NCBI GenBank assembly: GCA_016793775.1
Contig: JAEULK010000003.1
Location: forward strand, 1 to 41,597
Length of the DNA: 41,597 nucleotides
Direction of reading: 5' to 3'
Source of the DNA: Sphingopyxis sp.
Lineage (GTDB): Bacteria > Pseudomonadota > Alphaproteobacteria > Sphingomonadales > Sphingomonadaceae
Every line of letters begins with the position of its first letter. Position 1 is the first letter of the stretch. Positions 13,800 through 26,836 of this stretch are shown one piece after another. The position numbers and the translations under genes are program-made. Below the pieces are notes generated by a model. It was not told where the DNA came from. It saw only the letters and a list, made by a program, of their open reading frames with translations, and did not search any database.

Positions 13800-14120
13800 C
13801 TAGAGCGCGTTTTCGAGCCAGCCCTTGAGCGCACTCTTCGGCGCGGCGCCGACCTTGGTCTCGGCGATCTCGCCGTTCTTGAACAGGATCATCGTCGGGA
13901 TGCCGCGCACGCCATATTTGCCCGGCGCGTCGGGATTCTCGTCGATGTTGATCTTGGCGATCACCACCTTGCCGGCGAGCTCGTCCGAAATTTCTTCGAG
14001 CGAGGGGCCGATCATCTTGCACGGACCGCACCATTCGGCCCAGAAATCGACCAATACTGGTGTGTCGCTGTCGAGGACGTCGGCCTGGAAGCTGGCGTCG
14101 GTAATCGCTTTGGTGCCCAT
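13800..14120 (-). CDS. trxA: Thioredoxin
   Basis: This 106-residue cytoplasmic thioredoxin has the redox site WCGPCK (Cys31 and Cys34) in [18 protein letters not shown], the conserved cis-Pro segment [13 protein letters not shown], and no signal peptide. It supplies reducing power to ribonucleotide reductase, PAPS reductase and peroxiredoxins. GGAGACC lies just upstream of ATG 14120. It sits 63 bases after addA on the same strand, the usual alphaproteobacterial order addB-addA-trxA, so it may be read from the upstream operon or from its own promoter. Confidence 0.96.
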
Positions 14121-14183: not shown

Positions 14184-17100
14184 TCAACCCGGCAAATTCG
14201 CCTTGGTTGCCAGCAAGCCCGGCTTGTGCGGCGCGAGCTCGGCATCGGCCAGCGCGACCCATTTCGGCCCCGCAGTGTAGAGCAACGCCGCTTCGATCCG
14301 CCGTGCCGGGAAGATCACCGCGAGCGCGTCGCGATAGGCCGCCATCTGCCGCAGATAGGCGGGTGCCACCTCGCCCGCCGACGCCGGCACATGCCGCCCG
14401 GTCTTGTAATCGACCACCGTCACGGCATCGCCCGTCACCAGCAGCCGGTCGACGATCCCCACGATCACCGCGCCATGGACCACCGCCGACAGCGGCACTT
14501 CGGCGAGCGATCCCGGTCCGAAGATCGCGGCATGCGCCGGATCCTCGATCACCGTCAGCACTTCGTCGACCAGCGCGCCATGCGTCGCCGCATCGAGGTC
14601 GGGCGCCTGCACGCCCAGCCAGTGCATCGCCGCCGCGCGCCGCCGCGCCGGGGCGACCGGCGGCAGACGCTCGAACAGCGCATGGAGCAATAGCCCGCGC
14701 GACACCGCATCGGCGCGCGCCGTGCCCTGCGGCGGCACCGCGACATCGTCGTCGCCCAGCGCCGACGGCGCCAGCGGTCGCGGCGGCCGCGCCTCCTCGG
14801 GCGCGGGCCGCTGTGCCCAGTCGGGAACGACGAACGGCGCCGCGACCGGCGCCTTGGCTTTCACCGGCCGCGCCCATTTCTTCGCATGCACCGCATGGAC
14901 GCGCTTTTGTCCCCAGCGCGGCCCTGCATCCTGCCAGCCGAGCCCCATATCCGCCATCACCGCATCGACCGCGCTATGCCAATTGTCGGCGGGCAGCTCG
15001 TCCGATTTTCGCGTACCGGTGACGACCAGCAATTCCTCGGCGCGCGTCATCGCGACGTACAGCAGCCGCCAATGTTCCTGCAATTCGGCGCGGGCCTTCG
15101 CGTCATGCGCATCGGCGACCTTGCCGTGACGCTCCTCCTTGCCGAGCGCGAAGGCGGGCAATTTGTCCCAATTGCCGAGCGACAGGTCGAAACTCAATCT
15201 CTTCGACGCCGGATCGTCGGTCGCATCGGCGAGGATGACGATCGGCGCCTGCAAGCCCTTCGACCCGTGCACCGTCATCACGCGCACGACGTCGCTGCGC
15301 GCCTCGGTCTGGCGCTTGATGTCGGCGGTGCTCGCGTCGATCCGCGTCAGGAAACCGAGCAGGGACGGCACCTCGAACTGCTCGAAGGCCAGGGCCTGCG
15401 CGAGCAGTTCGTCGATCGGGTCGCGCGCCTCGCGCCCCAGCCGCGCATAGAGCCTCCGCCGCCCGTCGATCGGCCCCGACAAAATGCGATCGAGGAAGCG
15501 GAAAGGCGTGGTGAAATCGGCCATGCCGAGCAGGCCCCGCAGCGCCGCCATCGTTTCCGCCGGCACCTCCGCCTCGCGATCGCGAAGCGCCCCCCACAGC
15601 GACGACGTCCGCGCATGGGCAAAGCCGAACAGCGCCTCCTGCGACCAGCCGAACAGGGGCGAGACGAGCAAGGCGGACAGGTTGAGGTCGTCGAGCGGCT
15701 GTACCGCAAAGCGCATCGCCGCGAGCAGGTCCTGCACCGCGAGCGGCTGGGTCAGCGCGAAGCGATCGACACCCGCCACCGGCACATGGCGCGACTGGAG
15801 CCGCGCGACGATCCGCGCCGCCAGATCGCGGCGCCGCCGCACGAGGATCAGCACATCGCCCGGCGCGACGCTGCGCCCGTCCTTGCCATTGGCGATCCAG
15901 TCCTGCACCTCGTCGGCGATCGCCCGCGACAGCCGCAGGCTCGCGGGGTCGCTCGCCGCGGCGAGGCCGTCGGCGGGCGGGGCGCCTTCGCCGTCCTCGC
16001 TCTCGGCCTCGACCGCATCCTCTTCCTCGGCCCCATCGAGCGCCTTGCCCACCGGCAGCGGCTGCCACAGCTCGACGCGCCCCGGATGCGTGCTCTTGAA
16101 AGGCAGCGGTTGTTTTTCACCGCTGTCGAGCCCCATCAACTCGGTTGCGCCTGCCGCGATCCATTGGTCCACCACGTCGAGCACGGCGGGGCTCGACCGG
16201 TAATTGGTGACCAGATCGACGCCCTTGAAGGGCCGCCCGCCCTCCGCCGCGCGCTCGCCGAAGCGCAGCCGCGCCGCCTCAAACGCCGCGGGCTCGGTGC
16301 CCTGGAAGCCGAAGATCGCCTGTTTGCGGTCGCCGACGGTGAACATCGTGCGGACGCGCTCGTCCTTCGCGCCCTGGCCGACAAAAAACTCCTCGGCCAG
16401 CGACAGGACGATCGCCCATTGGCGCGCATTGGTGTCCTGCGCCTCATCGACCAATATATGGTCGGTGCGCTGGTCGAGCTTGAAGCGCACCCAGTCGCCG
16501 AAATCGCCGCGCCCGAGCAGGTGCAGCGCGATGCCGATCAGGTCGTCGAAATCGGCGAGCCCCGCCGCGCGCTTGGCGAGCGCATAGGCCTCGGCAAAGC
16601 GGCTGCCCAAATCCCAGGCGGCGGCAAGATCGTCGGCGACCGCCATCGCCGCCGCGTTCGCGACCAGCGCATCGACCGCCCCGACGATCCGCGTCGCGGC
16701 GCCCAGGCAATCGTGCATCTTGCCCGTTTCCTTGACGAAGTCGGCGCGCAGCTCGCCGGTCCCCGTGACGAAGCAAGTGCGCAGCGCCGCGAGCATCGCC
16801 CCGCGCCCGGCGGGATCGGCGCGCAGCCAGTCGCCCATCAGTGCGGCGCGCGTTTCGCCAGTCTTGGTGCCCCAAGCCCGCCCGCTCGCCGCGACTGCGG
16901 CACTATCGGCGTCGGCGACCAGCCCGCGCTCGAGCGCCGCGACCTGGAACGCCGCCGGATCGCCCTGCGGCAGTCCCAGCGCGTCGCGCACATCGCCCGC
17001 CTTGGGCGCGATGCGCGGCTGGTCGGCACCGCCGAAGCGCCCCGCGCAGCGGACGAGGAAGGCGATCGCCGCATCCTGCCCCATCCGCCGCGACAGCATC

Positions 17101-17639
17101 GCCGCAACGCCGCGCATCGCCTCGCCATCGGCGTCCTTCTGCCCGAGCAATTTGCCCAGCACCTCGCGCTGGAGCGCGCTCGCCTCGCTGTCCTCCAGGG
17201 GGCGGAAGCCCGGCAATATCTTCGCTTCCAATGGAAAGCTCGCGAGCAGGGTCTGGCAGAAGCTGTGGATCGTCTGGACGCGGATCGCGCCGCCCGGGCT
17301 GTCGATCACGGTGGCGAACAGCGAGCGCGCGCGGTCGAGAATATCCGGGGTTTCCCAGTTGGCGCCCAGCGCGCGCAGGTCGAGCCGCAGGTCGCCGTCG
17401 TCCATCCGCACCCACAGGGCGAGCCGCTCGTGGATGCGGTGCGCCATTTCGGCGGCCCCCGCCTTGGTGAAGGTGATGCACAGGATCGCCTCGGGCGACA
17501 CGCCGCCGAGCATCAGCCGCAGCACGCGCGCCGACAGCACCTGGGTCTTGCCCGTGCCCGCCGAGGCGCCGAGCCAGACATGATCGTCGGGGTTCGCGGC
17601 GGCGCTCTGGCCGGGATCGAGATCGAACAGCCGCGTCAT
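14184..17639 (-). CDS. addA: AddA, helicase-nuclease subunit for double-strand-break repair
   Basis: The 1151-residue protein is a UvrD/Rep-type helicase with a C-terminal RecB-like nuclease. Walker A is GASAGTGKT at 24-32, motif II is DEAQDTN near residue 420, motif III is GDRKQAIFGFQG, motif V/VI-type segments include VMTVHGSKGLQAPIVILAD and LYVAMTRAEELLVV, and the nuclease motif is VVDYKTGRH near the C-terminus. With AddB it resects DNA ends and loads RecA. ATG 17639 overlaps the addB stop (ATGA), so translation is coupled and stoichiometric. The in-frame ATG at 17687 lies inside addB and is unlikely. Confidence 0.95.
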   Translation of the reverse strand: MTRLFDLDPGQSAAANPDDHVWLGASAGTGKTQVLSARVLRLMLGGVSPEAILCITFTKAGAAEMAHRIHERLALWVRMDDGDLRLDLRALGANWETPDILDRARSLFATVIDSPGGAIRVQTIHSFCQTLLASFPLEAKILPGFRPLEDSEASALQREVLGKLLGQKDADGEAMRGVAAMLSRRMGQDAAIAFLVRCAGRFGGADQPRIAPKAGDVRDALGLPQGDPAAFQVAALERGLVADADSAAVAASGRAWGTKTGETRAALMGDWLRADPAGRGAMLAALRTCFVTGTGELRADFVKETGKMHDCLGAATRIVGAVDALVANAAAMAVADDLAAAWDLGSRFAEAYALAKRAAGLADFDDLIGIALHLLGRGDFGDWVRFKLDQRTDHILVDEAQDTNARQWAIVLSLAEEFFVGQGAKDERVRTMFTVGDRKQAIFGFQGTEPAAFEAARLRFGERAAEGGRPFKGVDLVTNYRSSPAVLDVVDQWIAAGATELMGLDSGEKQPLPFKSTHPGRVELWQPLPVGKALDGAEEEDAVEAESEDGEGAPPADGLAAASDPASLRLSRAIADEVQDWIANGKDGRSVAPGDVLILVRRRRDLAARIVARLQSRHVPVAGVDRFALTQPLAVQDLLAAMRFAVQPLDDLNLSALLVSPLFGWSQEALFGFAHARTSSLWGALRDREAEVPAETMAALRGLLGMADFTTPFRFLDRILSGPIDGRRRLYARLGREARDPIDELLAQALAFEQFEVPSLLGFLTRIDASTADIKRQTEARSDVVRVMTVHGSKGLQAPIVILADATDDPASKRLSFDLSLGNWDKLPAFALGKEERHGKVADAHDAKARAELQEHWRLLYVAMTRAEELLVVTGTRKSDELPADNWHSAVDAVMADMGLGWQDAGPRWGQKRVHAVHAKKWARPVKAKAPVAAPFVVPDWAQRPAPEEARPPRPLAPSALGDDDVAVPPQGTARADAVSRGLLLHALFERLPPVAPARRRAAAMHWLGVQAPDLDAATHGALVDEVLTVIEDPAHAAIFGPGSLAEVPLSAVVHGAVIVGIVDRLLVTGDAVTVVDYKTGRHVPASAGEVAPAYLRQMAAYRDALAVIFPARRIEAALLYTAGPKWVALADAELAPHKPGLLATKANLPG

Positions 17640-20600
17640 GCCGGACCGCCGTCGTCGGGGGTGGTGCCGTCGCCGCGCCCGAACCATTCGTCGCGGCGCA
17701 TCAGCTGGTCGAAATCATCATAGCGCCGGCCCGCATCGCCCGGCACGAACGGCGCCTGCCCGAGCAGGAAGCGCTCGGCGAGATCGGCGAGCGCCTCCGC
17801 CGCGCGCTCGACCGCTTCCGCCGCCGTCTTCAGCGCGCGCCGCCCGCCGTGCGTCGGCGATATCTTGCCCTCCTCGCCCTTGGCGCGGTCGCGTTTCAGG
17901 CTCCAATATTCGAGCGCGCCCACCGGCGCCGCATCGAGCCCGTCGGCCTGCCCCGCCTCGGCGATCAACCCGAGCAGGCCGAGCTGGTTGTCGAGCCCCG
18001 CCGCCGCCGCGGTACCAGACGGCGCCGCGCCGCTCTTGTAATCGACGATCGCGAGGCTGCCGTCGGCGAGCTGGTCGATGCGGTCGGCCTTGCCGTGCAG
18101 CCGGATGCCGCCCGTTACCATCGCGCCCTCGACCTCGCTCGCGACCGGCCAGCGGGTCTCGCGCTCGGCCCACACCCGCTCGGCGGCCCAGCGCAGCGAC
18201 GGCACGATGCGCGGCAGCCAGAAGGCGCGCGCCAGCGCGTCGAGCGCCGGGTCGGCGGCGAGCGCCGTCAGTTCGCTCTCCAGCGCCGCCTCGGTCATCC
18301 CGGCGCGGTGCCAATCCTCGAGCAGCTTGTGCACGCGCGTGCCGAACCATTTGGCGTCGGGCCCCTGGCTCAGCGGGTCGAGCGCGCTCAGCCGCAGGAT
18401 CTTCGCCGCGTAAAAGGCGAAGGGATCGCGCGCGAGCTGATCGACCCCGGTAACGCTGATCTTATCGGGCCGCGCCTCGGGCGGCGGCGCGACCGCGGGG
18501 CGCGGCGCGGGGTGCGGATCGCCCGGCGGGACGTCGAGCAGCGCGGCCAGTCCGGTCACGGGTTGCCCGCCGATTTGCGCGGCGGGCAATTCGCCCGCCA
18601 GCGCGCTCAGCCGCAGCCAGAAGCGCGACGCGACCGCGGGGTCGCCGCCGCTGCGCCGCGCGCGGGTCACCACCACCTTGCGCGCCGCGAGCGCGCCGGC
18701 GAAATCATGCGCCGCCATGCCCTGCTGCCGCTCGGGCGCGGCGAGGCCGAGCAGGCGGCGGATGCCCGGCGCGAGCCAGGGGTCGGGGGTCAGCGCCTGC
18801 GGCCAGCGCCCTTCGTCGAGCCCGCCGAGGATCATCACATCGGCGCGCTGCAACCGTGCCTCGAGCAGCCCCCAGATGAACAGCCGCGGATGCCCGCCAT
18901 AGGGCGGCCGGACGCTCTCGCCACCGAGCAGGTCGGCGAGCATCGCGGGAAAATCGGTCGGCGCGACGAGGGCGGGGCCGGCACCCTTGGCCAGCGCCCA
19001 GCGATCGAACAGGTCGGCGAGCTGCCGCCCCGCAGGCCCTGCCCACACCGCATCGCCGGTCAGCCAGCCGAGCGCCGCCTGCAAGGCTGCGAGCAAAGTC
19101 GTCGGCGGCACCGCCGTTCCCGCGCTCAGCGGGGCAAGATGCTTGCCCAGCCCGGCGACCAGCTCGCTCCACCAGCCGTGCAGCGCCGCCGCGGCGCCAT
19201 GGCCGCGCGCCTTGCCGTCGGCGGCGAGCAGCGCGAGGCGCACCGATACCCCGTCCCAGCCCGGGGTCAGGCCCGGCTGGCGCAGCAGCAGGTCGAGCCG
19301 CCTTACCTGGTCGAGCCAGGGCAGCCGCGCCTCGCCCTCCCGCACCAGCGGGTGGCCGAGTACCGTCAGCAGTCGCACGGGATCGAAGCGCGCGGCAAGT
19401 TCGGCGAGCCCGAGCAGCAAGGTGCCCGGCGGCAATTTCGCCAGCGGCCGCCCGGCGCTGTCGTCGACCATGATGTCCCAGCGCGCCAGTGCGCTCGCGA
19501 CGCGCTCGGCCAGCGCGCGGTCGGGGGTAACCAGCGCCGCAGTGCGCCCCGGCGTCTCGACCGCCGCGCGCATCATCAGCGCGATGCCCTGCGCCTCCTG
19601 CCCGTCGTCGGCGAACACCGCACCCGACAGGCCGGCGATCCCGGCGCCAAGGTCGGCCTTATCCTGCCAGCGCGCGGTGTAGGCGGCGGGGGCGAAGAGC
19701 AGCGAGACGAAATCGGCGCGCGCGTCGGGGCCGTCGAAATCCGACACGCCCTCCCAGGTCCGCACCTCGCCGCGCGCGACGCCCATGCGCCCGAGCAGCA
19801 GCTTCAGATGATATTGCGGATGCGTCTCCAGCGGCCGCGCCGGGTTTTCGGGGTTGGAGGCGACCGGCCCGAGCGCCTCCCATTCTTCCTCCGCCATGCC
19901 GAGGTCGAGCCCCGGCAACACGACCATGCCGCGCTCCATGGCGGCGGCGGTGCGCAGCAGCCGCGCGATCGCGGGCGCGGCGGTGGTGATCCCCGCCGCG
20001 ACGACGAAGCGCGCCGGCGGCGCGACGCGCCAGCCCTGGCTCACCCGGTCGAGCAGGCGGTTGCGCCGTTCGGCACGGTCGATCATCGCCGCGCGTGCCA
20101 GTTCGGCGGGCCAATGTTCGACGAGCAGGCGCAGCCGCTCCCACGACGCCTGCCAATGCTGCGCGAGGTCGCCGAGGAGCGCCTTGATCTCGGCGAGCCG
20201 CGCGGGCGCGACCTCCTCATAATGGAGCTGGTCGATCACCCGCCCCAGCCCTTCGGCGAGCTGGAACGCCGCGGCGCCGGTGATCGCCTCCTCGCCCGCG
20301 GGCTGGTGTGTCTCGATCAGCGCCGCGAGCATCAGCCGCCGCCGCAACGGGTCGATCGCGGGGGGGAGGGCGGCGCTCTCGTCGATCGGGTCGAGCGCCA
20401 GTGCGACCTCCTCGTCGAGGTCGGCGTCGCCGATCACCACGAGCCGCGGCATCAGCAGGCCTTGCCCGCCCGCGCGCACGAACGCCGCCTGCACCGCGCT
20501 GCGCGCCCGGTTGCTCGGCAGCAGGATCAGTCCCTCGGCCAGCCCCAGCGCGCCATCGGCGAAACGGTCGATCAGCCCCGCGGCGAGCGCGTCGGCAAAG

Positions 20601-20647
20601 GCCCGCTGGACCGGGATCGAAAAGATAGTCGGCTTGGCGTCAGCCAT
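17636..20647 (-). CDS. addB: AddB, nuclease subunit of the AddAB complex
   Basis: The 1003-residue protein matches alphaproteobacterial AddB: N-terminal FSIPVQRAFADALAAGLIDRF, LILLPSNRARSAVQAAF, a long degenerate-helicase middle with DVMILGGLDEGRWPQALTPDPWLAP, and a C-terminal RecB-family nuclease domain (LHGKADRIDQLADGSLAIVDYKSG near 860-885). No functional Walker A is apparent, as expected for AddB in this group. It forms the second nuclease and Chi-scanning arm of AddAB. Its start overlaps the murU end by 8 bases and its stop overlaps addA by 4. Confidence 0.94.
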   Translation of the reverse strand: MADAKPTIFSIPVQRAFADALAAGLIDRFADGALGLAEGLILLPSNRARSAVQAAFVRAGGQGLLMPRLVVIGDADLDEEVALALDPIDESAALPPAIDPLRRRLMLAALIETHQPAGEEAITGAAAFQLAEGLGRVIDQLHYEEVAPARLAEIKALLGDLAQHWQASWERLRLLVEHWPAELARAAMIDRAERRNRLLDRVSQGWRVAPPARFVVAAGITTAAPAIARLLRTAAAMERGMVVLPGLDLGMAEEEWEALGPVASNPENPARPLETHPQYHLKLLLGRMGVARGEVRTWEGVSDFDGPDARADFVSLLFAPAAYTARWQDKADLGAGIAGLSGAVFADDGQEAQGIALMMRAAVETPGRTAALVTPDRALAERVASALARWDIMVDDSAGRPLAKLPPGTLLLGLAELAARFDPVRLLTVLGHPLVREGEARLPWLDQVRRLDLLLRQPGLTPGWDGVSVRLALLAADGKARGHGAAAALHGWWSELVAGLGKHLAPLSAGTAVPPTTLLAALQAALGWLTGDAVWAGPAGRQLADLFDRWALAKGAGPALVAPTDFPAMLADLLGGESVRPPYGGHPRLFIWGLLEARLQRADVMILGGLDEGRWPQALTPDPWLAPGIRRLLGLAAPERQQGMAAHDFAGALAARKVVVTRARRSGGDPAVASRFWLRLSALAGELPAAQIGGQPVTGLAALLDVPPGDPHPAPRPAVAPPPEARPDKISVTGVDQLARDPFAFYAAKILRLSALDPLSQGPDAKWFGTRVHKLLEDWHRAGMTEAALESELTALAADPALDALARAFWLPRIVPSLRWAAERVWAERETRWPVASEVEGAMVTGGIRLHGKADRIDQLADGSLAIVDYKSGAAPSGTAAAAGLDNQLGLLGLIAEAGQADGLDAAPVGALEYWSLKRDRAKGEEGKISPTHGGRRALKTAAEAVERAAEALADLAERFLLGQAPFVPGDAGRRYDDFDQLMRRDEWFGRGDGTTPDDGGPA

Positions 20648-21359
20648 CCGTCAGCGCGGCTTCGGTCGGCCCGATGCTCGCCGGAGTGCCGACGTCGAAC
20701 CATTGCCCCATGTGCGACAGCCCATAGAGCCGCCCCGCGGCGATCGCGCGGTCCCAGAAGATATTGGTCGAAAACGGCCCCTCGGGCGCATCGACGAGTA
20801 AGCGCCGCGACACCAGCTGGACGCCGGTATAGACGAAGGGGGCGATGCGGCCGGGCTTTCGGCGCGACAATTGTCCGGTGGGGTCCATGTGGAAATCGCC
20901 GCGGCCGCCGTGCCCGGTCGCGCTCGCCTGGCGGATCACCAGCAGCAGCGCGTCCATGCGCTCGCCGTCCCAGTGGCGCGCGAGCTGCTCGATGCTGTCC
21001 TGCGGCCCGTCGGTCCAGATATTGTCGCTGTTGACGATCAGGATCGGGTCGCCGGTCAGCTGCGGCAGCGCCTTCATCATCCCGCCGCCGGTTTCGAGCA
21101 GCCGGTCGCGCTCGTCCGAAATCGCGATGGTGAAGGGGCGCTTCTGTGCCGCGAGATGCGCTTCGAGCGCGTCGGCGAGATAATGGACGTTGACCACGAC
21201 ATGGCCGATCCCCGCCGCCTCGATGCGGTCGAGGCTATGGTCGATCAGCGGCTTGCCCGCGACGCGCACCAGCGGCTTGGGCCGGGTGGCGGTCAGCGGA
21301 CGCATGCGCTTGCCCAGCCCGGCCGCCATCACCATCGCGCTTTCGATCTTCGCGCTCAC
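20640..21359 (-). CDS. murU: Nucleotidyltransferase, probable MurNAc-1-phosphate uridylyltransferase (MurU)
   Basis: The 239-residue enzyme has the sugar-nucleotidyltransferase signature AAGLGKRMRPLT (12-23), RPKPLVRVAGKPLIDH, LLETGGGMMKAL and VNSDNIW. It resembles MurU, which turns MurNAc-1-phosphate and UTP into UDP-MurNAc in peptidoglycan recycling, and lies directly after an AmgK-like kinase gene, the pair that makes this bypass. Mannose-1-phosphate guanylyltransferase is the common generic name and remains an alternative. The start is GTG 21359, overlapping the kinase stop as GTGA; the much longer open frame upstream runs through the kinase gene and is not coding. Confidence 0.85.
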   Translation of the reverse strand: MSAKIESAMVMAAGLGKRMRPLTATRPKPLVRVAGKPLIDHSLDRIEAAGIGHVVVNVHYLADALEAHLAAQKRPFTIAISDERDRLLETGGGMMKALPQLTGDPILIVNSDNIWTDGPQDSIEQLARHWDGERMDALLLVIRQASATGHGGRGDFHMDPTGQLSRRKPGRIAPFVYTGVQLVSRRLLVDAPEGPFSTNIFWDRAIAAGRLYGLSHMGQWFDVGTPASIGPTEAALTDG

Positions 21360-22327
21360 AGCCACGCCTCCGCCCTTTTGTCGGCGGGGATATTGGCATC
21401 GAACCATTGCCGGGCGGGGACAAGCGCCGGATGCGCGAGATCGCGTTCGAGCAGCCCCCACATGCGCGGCTGGAAGCGGCGATATCCGTCCTTGCCGTCG
21501 CGTTTCCACAGCCGCACGAAGACGCCGAGGATGCGCGTGTTGCGCTGCGCGGCGAGCGCCCAATAGGCGTGTTCGATATCAAGCCCCGTCGCCTCTTGGT
21601 AGCGCGCGAGCATCGCCGCCTCGACCGCGGGACTCACGTCGCGCCGCGCATCCTCGAGCACCGAGGCGAGGTCATAGGCGGGGTGGCCGACGAGCGCGTC
21701 CTGGAAATCGAGCAGGCCATAATGTTCGACCCCGGCCTTGTCGCCAACCAGCATGATATTCTCGGCATGGAAATCGCGCAGCACGGTGACGCGCGGCAGG
21801 CCGTCCAGCTCGACCGGGCGCAAGGCCGCTTCCCAGGCGGCGCGGAACGCATCGCGGTCGGCCTCGATGCCCATCGCCGGGCAATACCAGTCGGCGAACA
21901 GCATCACCTCGTCGAGCCATTGGTCGAACCCGTGCACCGGCAGCCCGGCCATCGGCGGCCGCGCATGGAGGTGGACGAGCAGGTCGGTGACCCCGGCATA
22001 ATGCGCCATCTCGTCGGGCAGCGCGGCATCGACCGTCTCACGCAGCCGCACATCGCCGAAATCCTCGATAAGCAGCAGCCCGCGCTCCAGGTCGCGCGCG
22101 AAGATCGTCGGGGCATTCAGCCCCTGGTCGCACAGATATTCGGCGATAGCGATGAAGGGACGCGGGTCCTCGTGCGGCGGCGGCGCGTCCATCAGCACCG
22201 CGCGGCGGTCGCCGTCGACGATGCGGAAATAGCGCCGGAACGACGCGTCACCCGCGAGCGGCAATATCTGGGCATCGCCCCAGCCATGCGCGGCGAGGAA
22301 GGCGGGCGCATGCGCGGGCGGAATCAT
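21356..22327 (-). CDS. amgK: Sugar anomeric kinase AmgK-like (aminoglycoside phosphotransferase fold)
   Basis: The 323-residue protein has a kinase-like fold of the APH family: GDASFRRYFRI (nucleotide loop, 26-36), LLLIEDFGD, the catalytic loop VLRDFHAENIM with Asp185 and Asn190, and the metal motif LLDFQD (205-210). With the adjacent MurU-like enzyme it fits AmgK, which phosphorylates MurNAc and GlcNAc at C1 and bypasses de novo UDP-MurNAc synthesis, giving fosfomycin tolerance in species that have it. ATG 22327 overlaps the tsaE stop (ATGA); ATG 22339 is an alternative. Choline or aminoglycoside kinase is unlikely from context. Confidence 0.85.
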   Translation of the reverse strand: MIPPAHAPAFLAAHGWGDAQILPLAGDASFRRYFRIVDGDRRAVLMDAPPPHEDPRPFIAIAEYLCDQGLNAPTIFARDLERGLLLIEDFGDVRLRETVDAALPDEMAHYAGVTDLLVHLHARPPMAGLPVHGFDQWLDEVMLFADWYCPAMGIEADRDAFRAAWEAALRPVELDGLPRVTVLRDFHAENIMLVGDKAGVEHYGLLDFQDALVGHPAYDLASVLEDARRDVSPAVEAAMLARYQEATGLDIEHAYWALAAQRNTRILGVFVRLWKRDGKDGYRRFQPRMWGLLERDLAHPALVPARQWFDANIPADKRAEAWL

Positions 22328-22776
22328 CGGAGCGGCCATCGGCTCCCCCAAGACGTCGGCACCGCGGCTGTCAAGGCGCGCGCGTCGCCGCTTCCCGAAA
22401 TCGTCAGCGACAGCACCTCCGCCCACCCCTGCGACCCCAGCCGCTCGGGCCATTCGATCAACAGCGCGCCGTCGTACGCATAGTCGTCGAGACCAAGCTC
22501 GATCAGCTCATCCTCGTCCTCGATCCGGTACAGATCGACATGCGCGATGGCGAGGTCGACCTCGGGCGGCGCATAGGGCTGGACGATCGCAAAGGTGGGA
22601 CTCGGCGCCTCGCCGACCAGCCCGCGCGCCTTCAGCATCGCGCGCGCCAGCGTCGTCTTTCCGGCGCCGAGATCGCCCGACAACAGCACGACATCGCCCG
22701 CGATCAGCGCGGCACCGATGGCGCTCCCGATCCGCTCGGCCTCGGCGAGGGTATAGTCGAAACGATAGTCTGTCAT
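22324..22776 (-). CDS. tsaE: tRNA threonylcarbamoyladenosine biosynthesis ATPase TsaE
   Basis: The 150-residue P-loop ATPase has Walker A GDLGAGKTT at 34-42, the switch SPTFAIVQPY, HVDLYRI with the Walker B-like Asp, and LIEWPERLG. TsaE acts with TsaB and TsaD in the t6A37 modification of ANN-decoding tRNAs. Start and stop overlap divL and amgK by 4 bases each (ATGA), so it sits in the middle of a chain of coupled cistrons. Confidence 0.95.
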   Translation of the reverse strand: MTDYRFDYTLAEAERIGSAIGAALIAGDVVLLSGDLGAGKTTLARAMLKARGLVGEAPSPTFAIVQPYAPPEVDLAIAHVDLYRIEDEDELIELGLDDYAYDGALLIEWPERLGSQGWAEVLSLTISGSGDARALTAAVPTSWGSRWPLR

Positions 22777-25133
22777 GCGCGCGGCAGGCTGACGCGGACC
22801 AGCGTGCCCTGCGCCTTTTCGCTCAACACCTCCATCGTCCCGCCATGCGCGGCGACGAGCTGGCGCGCGAGCGCGAGGCCGATGCCGCCGCTCTGCGTTC
22901 CCGCCTGCGTTCCGCTGGTCACCGCCGCGACCGCGTCGGGCATGCCGGGGCCGTTGTCCGACACGATGATGTCGATGCCCTTCGCGTCGCCATCGGCATG
23001 GAGCAGGACGCGCCCGCCCTTCTTGCGGCTCGGCGCGGTGTAACGCACCGCATTGTCGAGCAGCCCGGCGACGAGCCGCGACAGGCGCTCGGCATCGCCG
23101 TCGATATGGCCCAGCCCGGACGCGATATTGCCCACCAGTTCGACACCCTCGGCCGCGGCAAAGACTTTCGCTTCGCCCAGCGCGCCGTTCAGCAACGCCG
23201 CGACATCGACGGGTACGCGCTCGACCGCGAGGGTTCCCGCCTCGCCCTGCGCCAGGTCGAGCACATTGTCGATCTGCCGCCCCAGGACCGCGACCGAATC
23301 CATGATCGCATCGATATAGGCCGCCTGCTGATCGCCGAGCTTGCCCGCATAGCCCGCGCGCAGCATCTCGCCGAAGCCGCCGATCGAGGTGAGCGGCGTG
23401 CGCAGTTCGTAGCTCATCCGCGACAGGAAGGCGGTCTTGACCTTGTCGGCGGCTTCGAGCGCTTCATTGCGCTCGCGCAGGGTGCTTTCCATCTTCCGGT
23501 TGTCGCTGACGTCGAGCATGATCAACAGCGCATTGCCGTCGGGCAGGGGGATCGCGGCAAAATCGAAATAGCGCCCGTCGCGGAAACGGATTTCGCCCGC
23601 GCGCTGGGTGCGTTCCAATGTCGCGGCGCGGATGACTTCCTGCACGATGCTGATCTGGTTCGGTTTGGCGAGCCGGTCGGCGAGGCCGCCCATCAGCGCA
23701 TCGACACGCGGATGCGCCGCCAGCGTCGGCTCGTCGACCCCCCACAGGCGGCGGAAACGCTGGTTCCACAAATGCAGCCGCCCGTCGGGCGCGAACACCG
23801 CGATCGCCTCGAACAGATTGTCGAAGGTCGCGGTCCGCACGCGCAGCAGCGTGTCGCGCGCGCCCGCAAGCTGGACCTGTTCGGTGCGATCCTCGGCGAT
23901 CAGCAGCATGCCGCCGTCGGGGGTCGGCTGGCCGACGACGCGCAAATGGGTGCCGTCGCGCAGCAGCCAATCCTCCTCGCTTGCCTGCGGCAGCGCGAAC
24001 CAATCGACATGCGCCTGGCGCCATTCGGGGAAATCGCGCACCTCGGGCGTCCGCCCGGCATCGCGCCAGGCGTCGAGCAGCCGCGCGAAGTCGGGCGCCT
24101 CGGCGATACTATCGGCGTCGATATCGAACATCCGGCGAAACGGCTGATTGGCGAAGACGAGCCCGTGGTCGGGGCCGAATTGCGCCACCGCCGCGGACAG
24201 CCGGTCGAGCAGTTCGCGCTGCGTCTCGGCGAAGCGGCGGTGGGCGCCGCGCTCGCTTTCCAGTTCCTGCACGTCGATCGCATAGCCCGCGACGCCGATC
24301 GGCTGGCCGCCGCGTGGGGTCAGCGGCACGTCGACGACGCGCATGATCCGCCGCTCGCCCGCGATGGTGACGGGCACGGTGCGCAATTGCGCCGATCCCG
24401 CGGCGCGCGCCGCCTGCGCCGCCTCGCCGGCGCTGACCCCGGCCACGGGTTCGAGCAGTTCGATGGCCTGTTCGATGACGACATCGGCGCTCTTGGCCTC
24501 GACCGCATGGACATAGGCCTGGTTGACCAGCGCCAGGTCGAGCCGCAGATCGCGGAACCACATCGGGAAGGGGGCGACCTCGATCAGCCCCGACAGCGCC
24601 TCAAACGCCGCCATCGCCTCGTCGCGCTCGGCCTTGAGCGCGATCTGCGACGACAGGCTCTCGGTCGCGTCGTCGAGCCACAGCAATACGCTGCCCGACC
24701 CGCCGATCGCGGTGGGTGCGGGGCCGCCATGGACGAGGATGGTGCGCGCGCCGCCCTGCGGCCGCAGGGTCATGACAAAGGGTTTGGCACCGCGCTGCGC
24801 GCCGAGGATCGCCTGGCGCAGCGCCTCGTGATCGGCGCTCTCCAGTCCCGCGCCCAGCGCGCATAATTCGTCGAAATTGCGTGGGCCCTTGTCCAGTCCC
24901 AGCCAGCGCCCCAGCCGCTCGCTCGCCTCGATGCGCCAGTCGCCGCGCACGACGACGGGCAGATAGGGCGAGGCTTCGACCAGGCTCGCGAGCCGTTCGG
25001 TCTGCGCCGCGGCAAAGGCCGAACGGCGCTGCATCGCGAGGCCGCGCCCTGCCGCCCAGATGCCGAGCATCAGCCACAGCGCCGCAAAGCCCCCGAGCGC
25101 GAAGGTCAGGGTCGGGGACAGCGCGCCGCTCAT
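22773..25133 (-). CDS. divL: DivL-like PAS sensor pseudo-histidine kinase with Tyr at the phosphoacceptor site
   Basis: The 786-residue protein has one N-terminal membrane helix (LTFALGGFAALWLMLGIWAAG, about 8-28), several PAS-like domains (about 45-160, 180-300, 310-420 and 430-550), a coiled linker, a HisKA-like dimerisation domain and a HATPase domain. The H-box reads FLSRMSYELRTPLT: Tyr575 stands where sensor kinases have His. The N-box (DNAVRY), G1 (DNGPGMP) and G2 (GGIGLALA) are kept. This Tyr swap and layout are the hallmark of DivL, which in Caulobacter reads DivK phosphorylation and controls the CckA-CtrA pathway at the new pole. The start is 272 bases from ahcY and the stop overlaps tsaE by 4 bases. 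Automated annotation may call it a PAS sensor histidine kinase. Confidence 0.9.
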   Translation of the reverse strand: MSGALSPTLTFALGGFAALWLMLGIWAAGRGLAMQRRSAFAAAQTERLASLVEASPYLPVVVRGDWRIEASERLGRWLGLDKGPRNFDELCALGAGLESADHEALRQAILGAQRGAKPFVMTLRPQGGARTILVHGGPAPTAIGGSGSVLLWLDDATESLSSQIALKAERDEAMAAFEALSGLIEVAPFPMWFRDLRLDLALVNQAYVHAVEAKSADVVIEQAIELLEPVAGVSAGEAAQAARAAGSAQLRTVPVTIAGERRIMRVVDVPLTPRGGQPIGVAGYAIDVQELESERGAHRRFAETQRELLDRLSAAVAQFGPDHGLVFANQPFRRMFDIDADSIAEAPDFARLLDAWRDAGRTPEVRDFPEWRQAHVDWFALPQASEEDWLLRDGTHLRVVGQPTPDGGMLLIAEDRTEQVQLAGARDTLLRVRTATFDNLFEAIAVFAPDGRLHLWNQRFRRLWGVDEPTLAAHPRVDALMGGLADRLAKPNQISIVQEVIRAATLERTQRAGEIRFRDGRYFDFAAIPLPDGNALLIMLDVSDNRKMESTLRERNEALEAADKVKTAFLSRMSYELRTPLTSIGGFGEMLRAGYAGKLGDQQAAYIDAIMDSVAVLGRQIDNVLDLAQGEAGTLAVERVPVDVAALLNGALGEAKVFAAAEGVELVGNIASGLGHIDGDAERLSRLVAGLLDNAVRYTAPSRKKGGRVLLHADGDAKGIDIIVSDNGPGMPDAVAAVTSGTQAGTQSGGIGLALARQLVAAHGGTMEVLSEKAQGTLVRVSLPRA

Positions 25134-25307
25134 CCTCCGTCACGCTCCCGCTGCTTGCCCGCCGACGCCCGTGTCATAGCCGTCAGCCGTAAAGACGATG
25201 GAGTCATGTTTCAATCGCATGTCACAGCGAAACGGCGCGTCCCACCTTCCGATGGGCGCGCCGTCCACAGTTTTCTGAAATTTCCGCGATGCGGAAATGC
25301 CGCGGCA

Positions 25308-25378
25308 CCGGCCCGCTCCCCCACCCGGCCTCCCACCCGATAATAGCCTAGGGGCGGCCGGGTGGGGGAGCGGGCCGG
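25308..25378. repeat. Perfect 23-bp inverted repeat between ahcY and divL
   Basis: Arms 25308-25330 and 25356-25378 are perfect inverted copies with a 25-base loop, 27 bases after the ahcY stop. A second hairpin, ATTTCCGC-GAT-GCGGAAAT, lies at 25280-25298. Neither has a T run. They may limit ahcY transcription into divL or belong to a repeat family. Confidence 0.8.
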
Positions 25379-25405
25379 CGCCGCCTTCGCCGTCAGGCGA
25401 AGAAA

Positions 25406-26836
25406 TCAATAACGATAATGGTCGGGCTTGAACGGGCCGTCGACCGGCACGCCGATATAATCGGCCTGCTTCTTGGTCAGCTTCGACAGATGCACGCCCA
25501 GCTTTTCGAGGTGCAGCGCCGCGACCTTTTCATCGAGATGCTTGGGCAGGACATAGACGTCGTTGCCGTATTGCTCGCTGCGCGTCCACAGTTCGATCTG
25601 CGCCAGCGTCTGGTTGGTGAAGCTCGCCGACATCACGAACGACGGGTGGCCCGTCGCATTGCCGAGGTTCACGAGGCGACCCTTCGACAGGATGATGATC
25701 TGCTTGCCAGGCCCATCTCCTTGGGGGGGGAATTCGACCAGGTCGACCTGCGGCTTCACTTCGGTCCATTTGTAGTTGGCGAGCGCCGCGATCTGGATCT
25801 CGCTGTCGAAGTGGCCGATGTTGCAGACGATCGCCATATTCTTCATGCCCGCCATATGCTCGGCGGTGATCACGTCGGCGTTGCCCGTCGCGGTGACGAA
25901 GATGTCCGACCGCTGGACGGCTTCGTCCATCGTCACGACCTCGAACCCTTCCATCGCCGCCTGCAGCGCGCAGATCGGGTCGATTTCGGTGACGAGCACG
26001 CGCGCGCCGCCGTTGCGGAGCGACTGGGCGCTGCCCTTGCCGACGTCGCCGAAGCCGGCGACGGTCGCGACCTTGCCGGCCAGCATCACGTCAGTGCCGC
26101 GGCGGATCGCATCGACGAGCGATTCCTTACAGCCATAGAGGTTGTCGAACTTCGACTTGGTGACGCTGTCGTTGACGTTGATCGCGGGGAAGGGCAGTTC
26201 GCCCTTTTTGGCGATGTGGTACAGGCGGTGGACGCCGGTGGTCGTTTCTTCCGACACGCCCTTGATCGCCTTGACCGTCTTGGTCAAGTAACCGGGGTTC
26301 GCAGCAACAAACGCCTTCAGCGCGCGCTGCATCTCGATCTCTTCCTCGTTCTCGGGCGCGGGCATTTCCTGCCCGGCTTCGAGCTTCGCGCCCCACAGCG
26401 CGAACATCGTGGCGTCGCCGCCATCGTCGAGGATCAGGTTGCAGGTCGTGCCGTCTTCGACACCCCAGTCGAAGATGCGGCCGACATAGTCCCAATAATC
26501 GGCGAGGCTCTCGCCCTTGATCGCGAACACCGGCACGCCCGAGGCGGCGATCGCGGCGGCGGCATGGTCCTGCGTCGAGAAGATGTTGCACGTCGCCCAC
26601 CGCACCTCGGCGCCGAGCGCGGTCAGCGTCTCGATCAGCACCGCGGTCTGGATCGTCATGTGCAGCGAACCCGTGATGCGCGCGCCCTTCAGCGGCTGCG
26701 CGGCGCCATATTCGGCGCGCAGCGCCATCAGGCCCGGCATTTCGGTTTCGGCGATGTTGATTTCTTTGCGCCCGAAATCGGCGAGCGCGATGTCGGCAAC
26801 GACATAATCACGGGTGTCGGCGGCGAGAGTGGCCAC
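25406..26836 (-). CDS. ahcY: Adenosylhomocysteinase (S-adenosylhomocysteine hydrolase)
   Basis: The 476-residue cytoplasmic NAD-dependent enzyme splits S-adenosylhomocysteine into adenosine and homocysteine, closing the methyl cycle. Landmarks are [31 protein letters not shown], the [13 protein letters not shown]-binding loop, [10 protein letters not shown], and the C-terminal KPDHYRY. The start is GTG 26836 with GGAG about 9 bases upstream. An oddity is E368[10 protein letters not shown]378: most relatives have only about one residue between EFP and GKQ, so about five residues are inserted next to a C8 run (25723-25730). A candidate operator overlaps its promoter at 26938-26957. Confidence 0.96.

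Follow-up and report, generated by a model that had tools for sequence, protein, structure and literature searches.

A predicted DivL pseudokinase of Sphingopyxis with tyrosine at the phosphoacceptor position and a deleted ATP lid

Introduction

DivL of Caulobacter crescentus is reported to have no autokinase or phosphatase activity, to bind the phosphorylated response regulator DivK (DivK~P) and to bind ATP weakly, and the tyrosine at its phosphoacceptor position is described as a general feature of DivL (PMC4211667). Active kinases are reported to bind in the range of 0.5-3 uM (PMC4211667). Caulobacter DivL drives CckA (PMC7200025). In Brucella abortus, ahcY, divL, tsaE, addB, addA and trx are co-transcribed with ten more genes, and it is suggested that the class inherited this operon from its ancestor (PMC9491525). 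Here we describe the divL gene in a stretch of 41,597 nucleotides from Sphingopyxis sp. (assembly GCA_016793775.1, contig JAEULK010000003.1, positions 1 to 41,597), which we call the window. Judged by its sequence, the product of this gene is a DivL orthologue, with Tyr575 at the phosphoacceptor position and with its ATP lid deleted. The tyrosine and the operon are already in print, as is the role as a pseudokinase. The decay of the ATP site in this lineage is, as far as our literature search tells, not described and is a modest extension; the search found no description of ATP-lid degeneration in DivL, a result that does not prove the absence of a published account of lid loss.

DivL identity and the phosphoacceptor position

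The best PDB match of the window protein is C. crescentus DivL (4q20, E=1e-30, with the next match at 7.9e-22), and Tyr575 aligns with Y550 of that structure. The DHp-CA cores of the two proteins are 36% identical in the fold alignment. In a tree of 168 rows from which the phosphoacceptor column had been removed, the two stand together on a side of 117 rows (93 loci from the class search, 22 named loci, the window and 4q20), none of them from the ordinary-kinase sets, with 97 Tyr, 4 His and 16 other residues at the phosphoacceptor. The kinase side holds 51 rows (28 named loci, 20 additional kinases, two kinases from the window's own genome and one class locus, L172) and has His in all of them. 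On the DivL side, the window groups with L080, L081, L204 and L205 with a support of 99. The sequence-only reading, made earlier from the letters of the window, had already proposed that the protein is DivL, and both the best PDB match and the tree grouping bear this out. At least one branch was very long (8.6) in a first tree of 179 rows, which included kinases of other subfamilies from the window's own genome; in the rebuilt tree of 168 rows the own-genome kinases were dropped except L037 and L043, as was L206, which had too few letters. Both trees leave out the odd-numbered loci of L227-L283, and L157 (too short) as well as L161, L176-L179 and ownL044 (no core match) were unusable.

Tyrosine is the counterpart of Tyr575 in 25/25 genus relatives examined (24 of the 25 other genus genomes, G261 having yielded no locus, plus one from the order search) and in 28/28 further order relatives, which, besides the window and L284, were taken from 56 matching genomes after the 26 lower-scoring ones had been left out. 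Both TAC and TAT serve as the codon among the 23 listed genus sequences, one of which is the window. In the class search, 185 of 190 genomes had a match, and 100 loci were fetched: the best in 98 genomes (E from 1.5e-212 to 8.6e-39) and the second in two. The residue at 575 in these loci is Tyr in 74, His in 5, another residue in 16 and not aligned in 5, a count in which the most divergent loci may be misaligned. A set of 80 named loci was drawn from 575 confirmed ones with search patterns that favour Tyr or His; among these named matches listed, 23 are DivL-type loci (L204-L226, 22 with Tyr and 1 with Met) and 57 are His kinases, and Sphingomonas mali (50%, among the matches listed) is one of the nearest named relatives, which point to a place of the window in the Sphingomonadales. 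All 20 additional kinases have His at the phosphoacceptor.

The open reading frame, the H-box MSYELRTPL and the TAC codon for Tyr575 given by the sequence-only reading were all read again in the sequence (Table 1). Its prediction that phosphotransfer would not go through His also agrees with what the protein presents at the phosphoacceptor position, a Tyr. Pfam recognizes, above cut-off, PAS_7 (residues 309-421), PAS_4 (437-546), HisKA/DHp (566-633) and HATPase/CA (679-785), and an extra PAS match at 180-288 stays under its cut-off. An N-terminal helix (7-54) is present in the AlphaFold model and was judged by eye to be of membrane nature; the model has a mean predicted local distance difference test score (pLDDT) of 84.4 and a predicted TM-score of 0.34. 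Generic annotation of divL would probably stop at 'histidine kinase', because the listed NCBIfam matches are under their cut-offs (68 matches, with all 25 among the matches listed under cut-off), and such an automatic label can now be corrected.

Of the DivK docking residues of C. crescentus DivL (Y550, R553, Y562 and A601), three have identical equivalents here. Y550, R553, D595 and A601 of 4q20 align with Y575, R578, D622 and A628 of the window protein, and Y562 corresponds to F587, as it does to Phe in 101/117 DivL-side rows. Alanine at 628 occurs in 95/117 rows on the DivL side and is less common on the kinase side (13/51). The window DivL resembles C. crescentus DivL in the Tyr for His, in the equivalents of R553 and A601 and in the partner genes or candidates present in its genome.

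The ATP site

The sequence-only reading had called the ATP-binding boxes intact. This applies to the N, G1 and G2 boxes, with N694, D726-x-G728-x-G730 and G750-x-G752 in place. Between G1 and G2, however, the F-box is deleted, and with it the ATP lid. C. crescentus DivL differs here, as 4q20 retains an IFDRF F-box where the window protein has the deletion. Residues 742-749 of the lid remnant have a pLDDT below 50 in the AlphaFold model. With no phosphoacceptor His and no F-box, the protein lacks what a competent HisKA kinase has.

The second Phe of the F-box is found in 51/51 kinase-side rows vs 99/117 DivL-side rows, and it is absent in 25/25 genus relatives examined, one of which (L333) has besides an N-box His and no G2 glycines. 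Twelve other members of the window's family include five with an N-box His, five with an altered F-box (three of these being a change of Phe to Tyr, which may be mild) and two that are intact in both places. In the other families of the order, N-box and F-box are both intact in 16/16 (L307 ends before G2). We scored six features (Glu/Asp at 576, N, D, G1, F and G2). All six are present in 39/51 kinase-side rows, with the 12 misses at the first F-box position only, and on the DivL side in 48/97 rows with Tyr, 3/4 with His and 3/16 with another residue; Gln at 576, found in 28 DivL-side rows, makes up a large part of the misses there. On this comparison of sequences, the loss of catalytic parts beyond the Tyr is lineage-specific. 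Because the lid is lost, the results suggest that the CA domain in this lineage works with little or no bound ATP.

Loss of the catalytic part of DivL has a parallel in the orthologues without a kinase domain, which are reported only where DivK is absent (PMC2877005), whereas the window protein retains a CA domain that lacks the lid, and its genome has a DivK candidate. Alone, our finding adds one more DivL, and its use is comparative: several kinds of ATP-site breakage within one family offer a natural experiment on the importance of ATP binding for DivL.

Two loci in two genomes of one genus (L139:5971-8064 and L144:5710-7827) carry a syntenic divL with His, not Tyr, with ahcY upstream, tsaE-amgK-murU-addB downstream and all six scored features present. 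These DivL orthologues might be active kinases, through reversion or retention. The idea that His is ancestral in some DivL-side rows was set aside, as the branches near L139/L144, L091 and L175 are too weakly supported.

Selective constraint

We compared the ratio of nonsynonymous to synonymous substitution rates (dN/dS) in 23 sequences per protein, with only two control kinases of the same genus. No other region compared in the 23 genus DivL sequences (the window among them) reaches the median dN/dS of the CA domain, 0.240; that of DHp is 0.110. With Pfam borders, the CA median is 0.168 for DivL vs 0.054 for CckA and 0.083 for an ordinary kinase on C96, and the DHp medians are 0.117, 0.000 and 0.078, respectively. 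Left out of the DivL set were L332-L334, of which two are partial and one is only 54% identical, and out of the control sets L360-L361 and L385-L386. Because the CA domain evolves faster yet remains constrained, these values suggest that it is relaxed but kept and still has a job.

Partner proteins in the genome

The genome in which we searched for partners is that of the window, which forms its contig C4; it is 96% complete and in 106 contigs. CtrA (NF045991, 415.3 bits, cut-off 350) and CpdR (NF046022, 191.9 bits, cut-off 180) are encoded. A CckA candidate has 5idj as its best PDB match, followed by 5idm, which is named CckA; a ChpT candidate matches PDB ChpT at 6.4e-22, and a DivK candidate matches PDB DivK at 5.5e-38 vs 3.7e-20 for its next match. 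This DivK-like response regulator (L064, G000:C98:9890-10249) is retained in 26/26 genus genomes. No DivJ above the family cut-off was found in the window's genome, and no search used a model specific to PleC; DivL itself matches the DivJ family best, with 103.8 bits against a cut-off of 1000. The box SHELRTPL occurs in 1 of 14 HisKA matches (L037), and in seven of them the box pattern matched nothing. A second CckA-like hybrid kinase, with an HDFNN box, was seen at L182:5394-7355, just downstream of a gene that by eye resembles serine palmitoyltransferase.

Mode of action and alternative explanations

As a whole, the results are best explained by a DivL orthologue that acts as a non-catalytic sensor of DivK and sets the activity of CckA, and we put the probability of this at about 0.82. 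A membrane-anchored DivL dimer would not transfer phosphate. Its DHp/CA core would bind DivK~P via a docking face with Y575, R578 and A628, DivL would relay this binding to CckA and shift it between kinase and phosphatase states, and the state of CckA would set CtrA~P through ChpT. By homology with the Caulobacter protein, it is most likely that the window DivL senses a partner by its kinase fold and signals to CckA; DivK~P as the input is the least certain step here.

An ordinary histidine kinase in which His has recently changed to Tyr, or whose codon contains a sequencing error, would also have a DHp/CA core that matches general kinase families and a model that resembles many kinase cores, as this protein does. 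However, a His codon misread as TAC does not agree with Tyr in every genus and order relative examined and with the use of both TAC and TAT, and the protein groups with DivL, away from the 51 rows with His, and lacks the ATP lid too. We rejected this explanation on the conservation of Tyr575 and the tree placement, and it can practically be dismissed. That DivL is a tyrosine kinase was an early proposal, and the title of 4q20 still says 'tyrosine kinase'. Tyr575 would then itself be phosphorylated and pass the phosphate on, which would fit its conservation in the genus and order sets and the Glu576 beside it, Glu being the residue at this position in 79/117 DivL-side rows (Gln in 28/117). The F-box and lid are gone here, however, and C. 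crescentus DivL is reported to be without autokinase activity (PMC4211667), so that a tyrosine kinase is very improbable. A different possibility is that the DivL of this family is deaf to DivK~P and either keeps CckA fixed in a single state or responds to some other signal via its PAS domains. The lack of a DivJ above cut-off and the relaxed CA domain would agree with this, as would the degeneration of DivJ-PleC-DivK reported for the order (PMC2877005) and the finding that in Hyphomonas neptunium DivL is essential though DivK is dispensable (PMC7200025). As a DivK-like protein is present in every genus genome and Y575, R578 and A628 are retained, we consider such deafness unlikely, though it deserves attention.

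Several points weigh against a DivL that senses DivK and sets CckA. The sequence-only reading would have been contradicted by a place among ordinary His kinases; the protein groups with DivL instead, on a split between the two sides that has weak support (64 in the Shimodaira-Hasegawa-like approximate likelihood ratio test, quick search). R578 (51/51) and F587 (43/51) are just as common in ordinary kinases and therefore are no markers of a DivK site. The fold comparison of the model does not separate DivL from other kinase cores: many kinases are matched and 4q20 comes only 23rd, its target TM-score (0.65) being similar to that of HK853 chains. Structure comparison was therefore not used as proof of DivL identity. 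The DHp domain of DivL too is somewhat less constrained than that of both control kinases. The CckA and ChpT candidates are best matches only, with scores that do not reach the curated NCBIfam cut-offs, and for the DivK candidate NCBIfam gave no match to a DivK model. Degeneration or loss of DivJ-PleC-DivK is reported for Sphingomonadales (PMC2877005), with which a window genome without a recognized DivJ agrees, and because of it a DivK~P input in the manner of Caulobacter may not apply. In Sphingomonas melonis, ctrA is reported to be dispensable (PMC8116508). A tentative extension, somewhat less probable than not in our view, is that the DivL of this family has become a nucleotide-independent pseudokinase. 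After an old His-to-Tyr change, its branches would have broken the ATP site differently (lid deleted, F-box altered, N-box Asn changed to His), and as DivK is kept without a recognized DivJ, DivL would read DivK phosphorylated by another kinase, or unphosphorylated DivK.

Operon and neighbourhood

The overlap chain divL-tsaE-amgK-murU noted by the sequence-only reading is real and even longer, as it extends through addB and addA, with trxA next (Table 1). Gene order and strand match the operon ahcY-divL-tsaE-murU-addB-addA-trx.

Table 1. Features of the divL region in the window
Feature	Position	Strand	Basis and remarks
ahcY	25406..26836	-	TIGR00936 above cut-off; upstream of divL, 272 nt gap
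divL, 786-aa pseudokinase (predicted)	22773..25133	-	Open reading frame with ATG start; Pfam; PDB; tree; AlphaFold model
TAC codon, Tyr575, phosphoacceptor position (C. crescentus Tyr550)	23409..23411	-	Alignment to 4q20
ATP-lid remnant, residues 731-749, F-box missing	22887..22943	-	Between G1 (DNGPGMP) and G2 (GGIGLAL)
tsaE	22324..22776	-	PF02367 E=5.3e-33; TIGR00150 92.2 bits (cut-off 60.1); 4-nt overlap with divL
amgK (anomeric N-acetylmuramic acid/N-acetylglucosamine (MurNAc/GlcNAc) kinase)	21356..22327	-	Best NCBIfam NF045698, 233 bits, under cut-off 500; 4-nt overlap with tsaE; start chosen at 22327, first start codon of the open frame lies further upstream
murU	20640..21359	-	Best NCBIfam NF045697, 247.5 bits, under cut-off 370; 4-nt overlap with amgK; GTG start at 21359 chosen
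addB	17636..20647	-	TIGR02786 779.5 bits (cut-off 486.5); 8-nt overlap with murU
addA	14184..17639	-	TIGR02784 1012.5 bits (cut-off 860.75); 4-nt overlap with addB; start taken at 17639
trxA	13800..14120	-	NF006898 and TIGR01068 above cut-off; 63 nt after addA

The 16-gene bvrR/bvrS operon of B. abortus has ahcY, divL, tsaE, a sugar-nucleotide transferase gene, addB, addA and trx-1 in the same order as the window, but there bvrRS-hprK-ptsM-ptsO precede ahcY, and unnamed genes separate ahcY from divL and addA from trx-1 (PMC9491525). No kinase gene is listed after tsaE there, whereas the window has amgK between tsaE and murU (PMC9491525). If divL is co-expressed with tsaE-amgK-murU-addAB, this would be a legacy of an old alphaproteobacterial operon. 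Caulobacter divL (CCNA_03598) is presumably located apart from amgK and murU. These two genes are CCNA_03649 and CCNA_03650 in Caulobacter (PMC13046382), whereas the window divL heads the chain tsaE-amgK-murU-addAB.

For the class-wide neighbourhood we considered genes on the strand of divL within the fetched stretch, which reaches up to about 6 kb past divL. Among the 85 DivL-side loci for which 3 kb or more is available downstream, tsaE follows in 50, directly adjacent in 17, and was not found on the same strand of the fetched stretch in 35; tsaE, amgK, murU and addB are all present in 32. Upstream, ahcY is found in 49 of the 82 DivL-side loci with at least 1.8 kb on that side. In L219, one of two named loci of Caulobacteraceae type, tsaE lies on the opposite strand; the other, L223, has no tsaE. 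The neighbourhood divL-tsaE-amgK-murU-addAB is thus common in the class sample, and the statement that the operon is practically absent in free-living bacteria concerns a different stretch, the whole 16-gene operon (PMC9491525). The arrangement in the window is neither unusual nor new. For this genome, we infer from the gene order that cell-cycle control may be linked through expression to cell-wall recycling and to repair.

A consensus promoter scan of 20500-25700 gave no site. Between ahcY and divL lies an inverted repeat (25302-25384, 33-nt arms), whose 23-nt core has 23 copies in the genome within 3 mismatches, with 0 for the reversed control. Six of the core copies begin at most 31 nt from the first base of a contig. 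The repeat seems to be a dispersed palindrome resembling repetitive extragenic palindromic elements, which seemingly breaks the assembly. We considered it as a terminator for divL, but drew no conclusion particular to this gene, since copies of the core are dispersed through the genome.

One locus, L111:5440-8409 (-), has a single frame of 990 residues in which DivL (140-802, 33%) is followed by TsaE (837-939, 48%). This apparent DivL-TsaE fusion, which could also be an assembly error, counts among the 50 loci with tsaE and has Ser at the phosphoacceptor place. In L082, L095, L099, L105, L110 and L122, divL and tsaE are separated by a gap of about 1.2-1.8 kb, the longest open reading frame of which lies on the opposite strand and, in L082, L095, L105 and L110, has a start that by eye resembles a flavin-dependent oxidoreductase.

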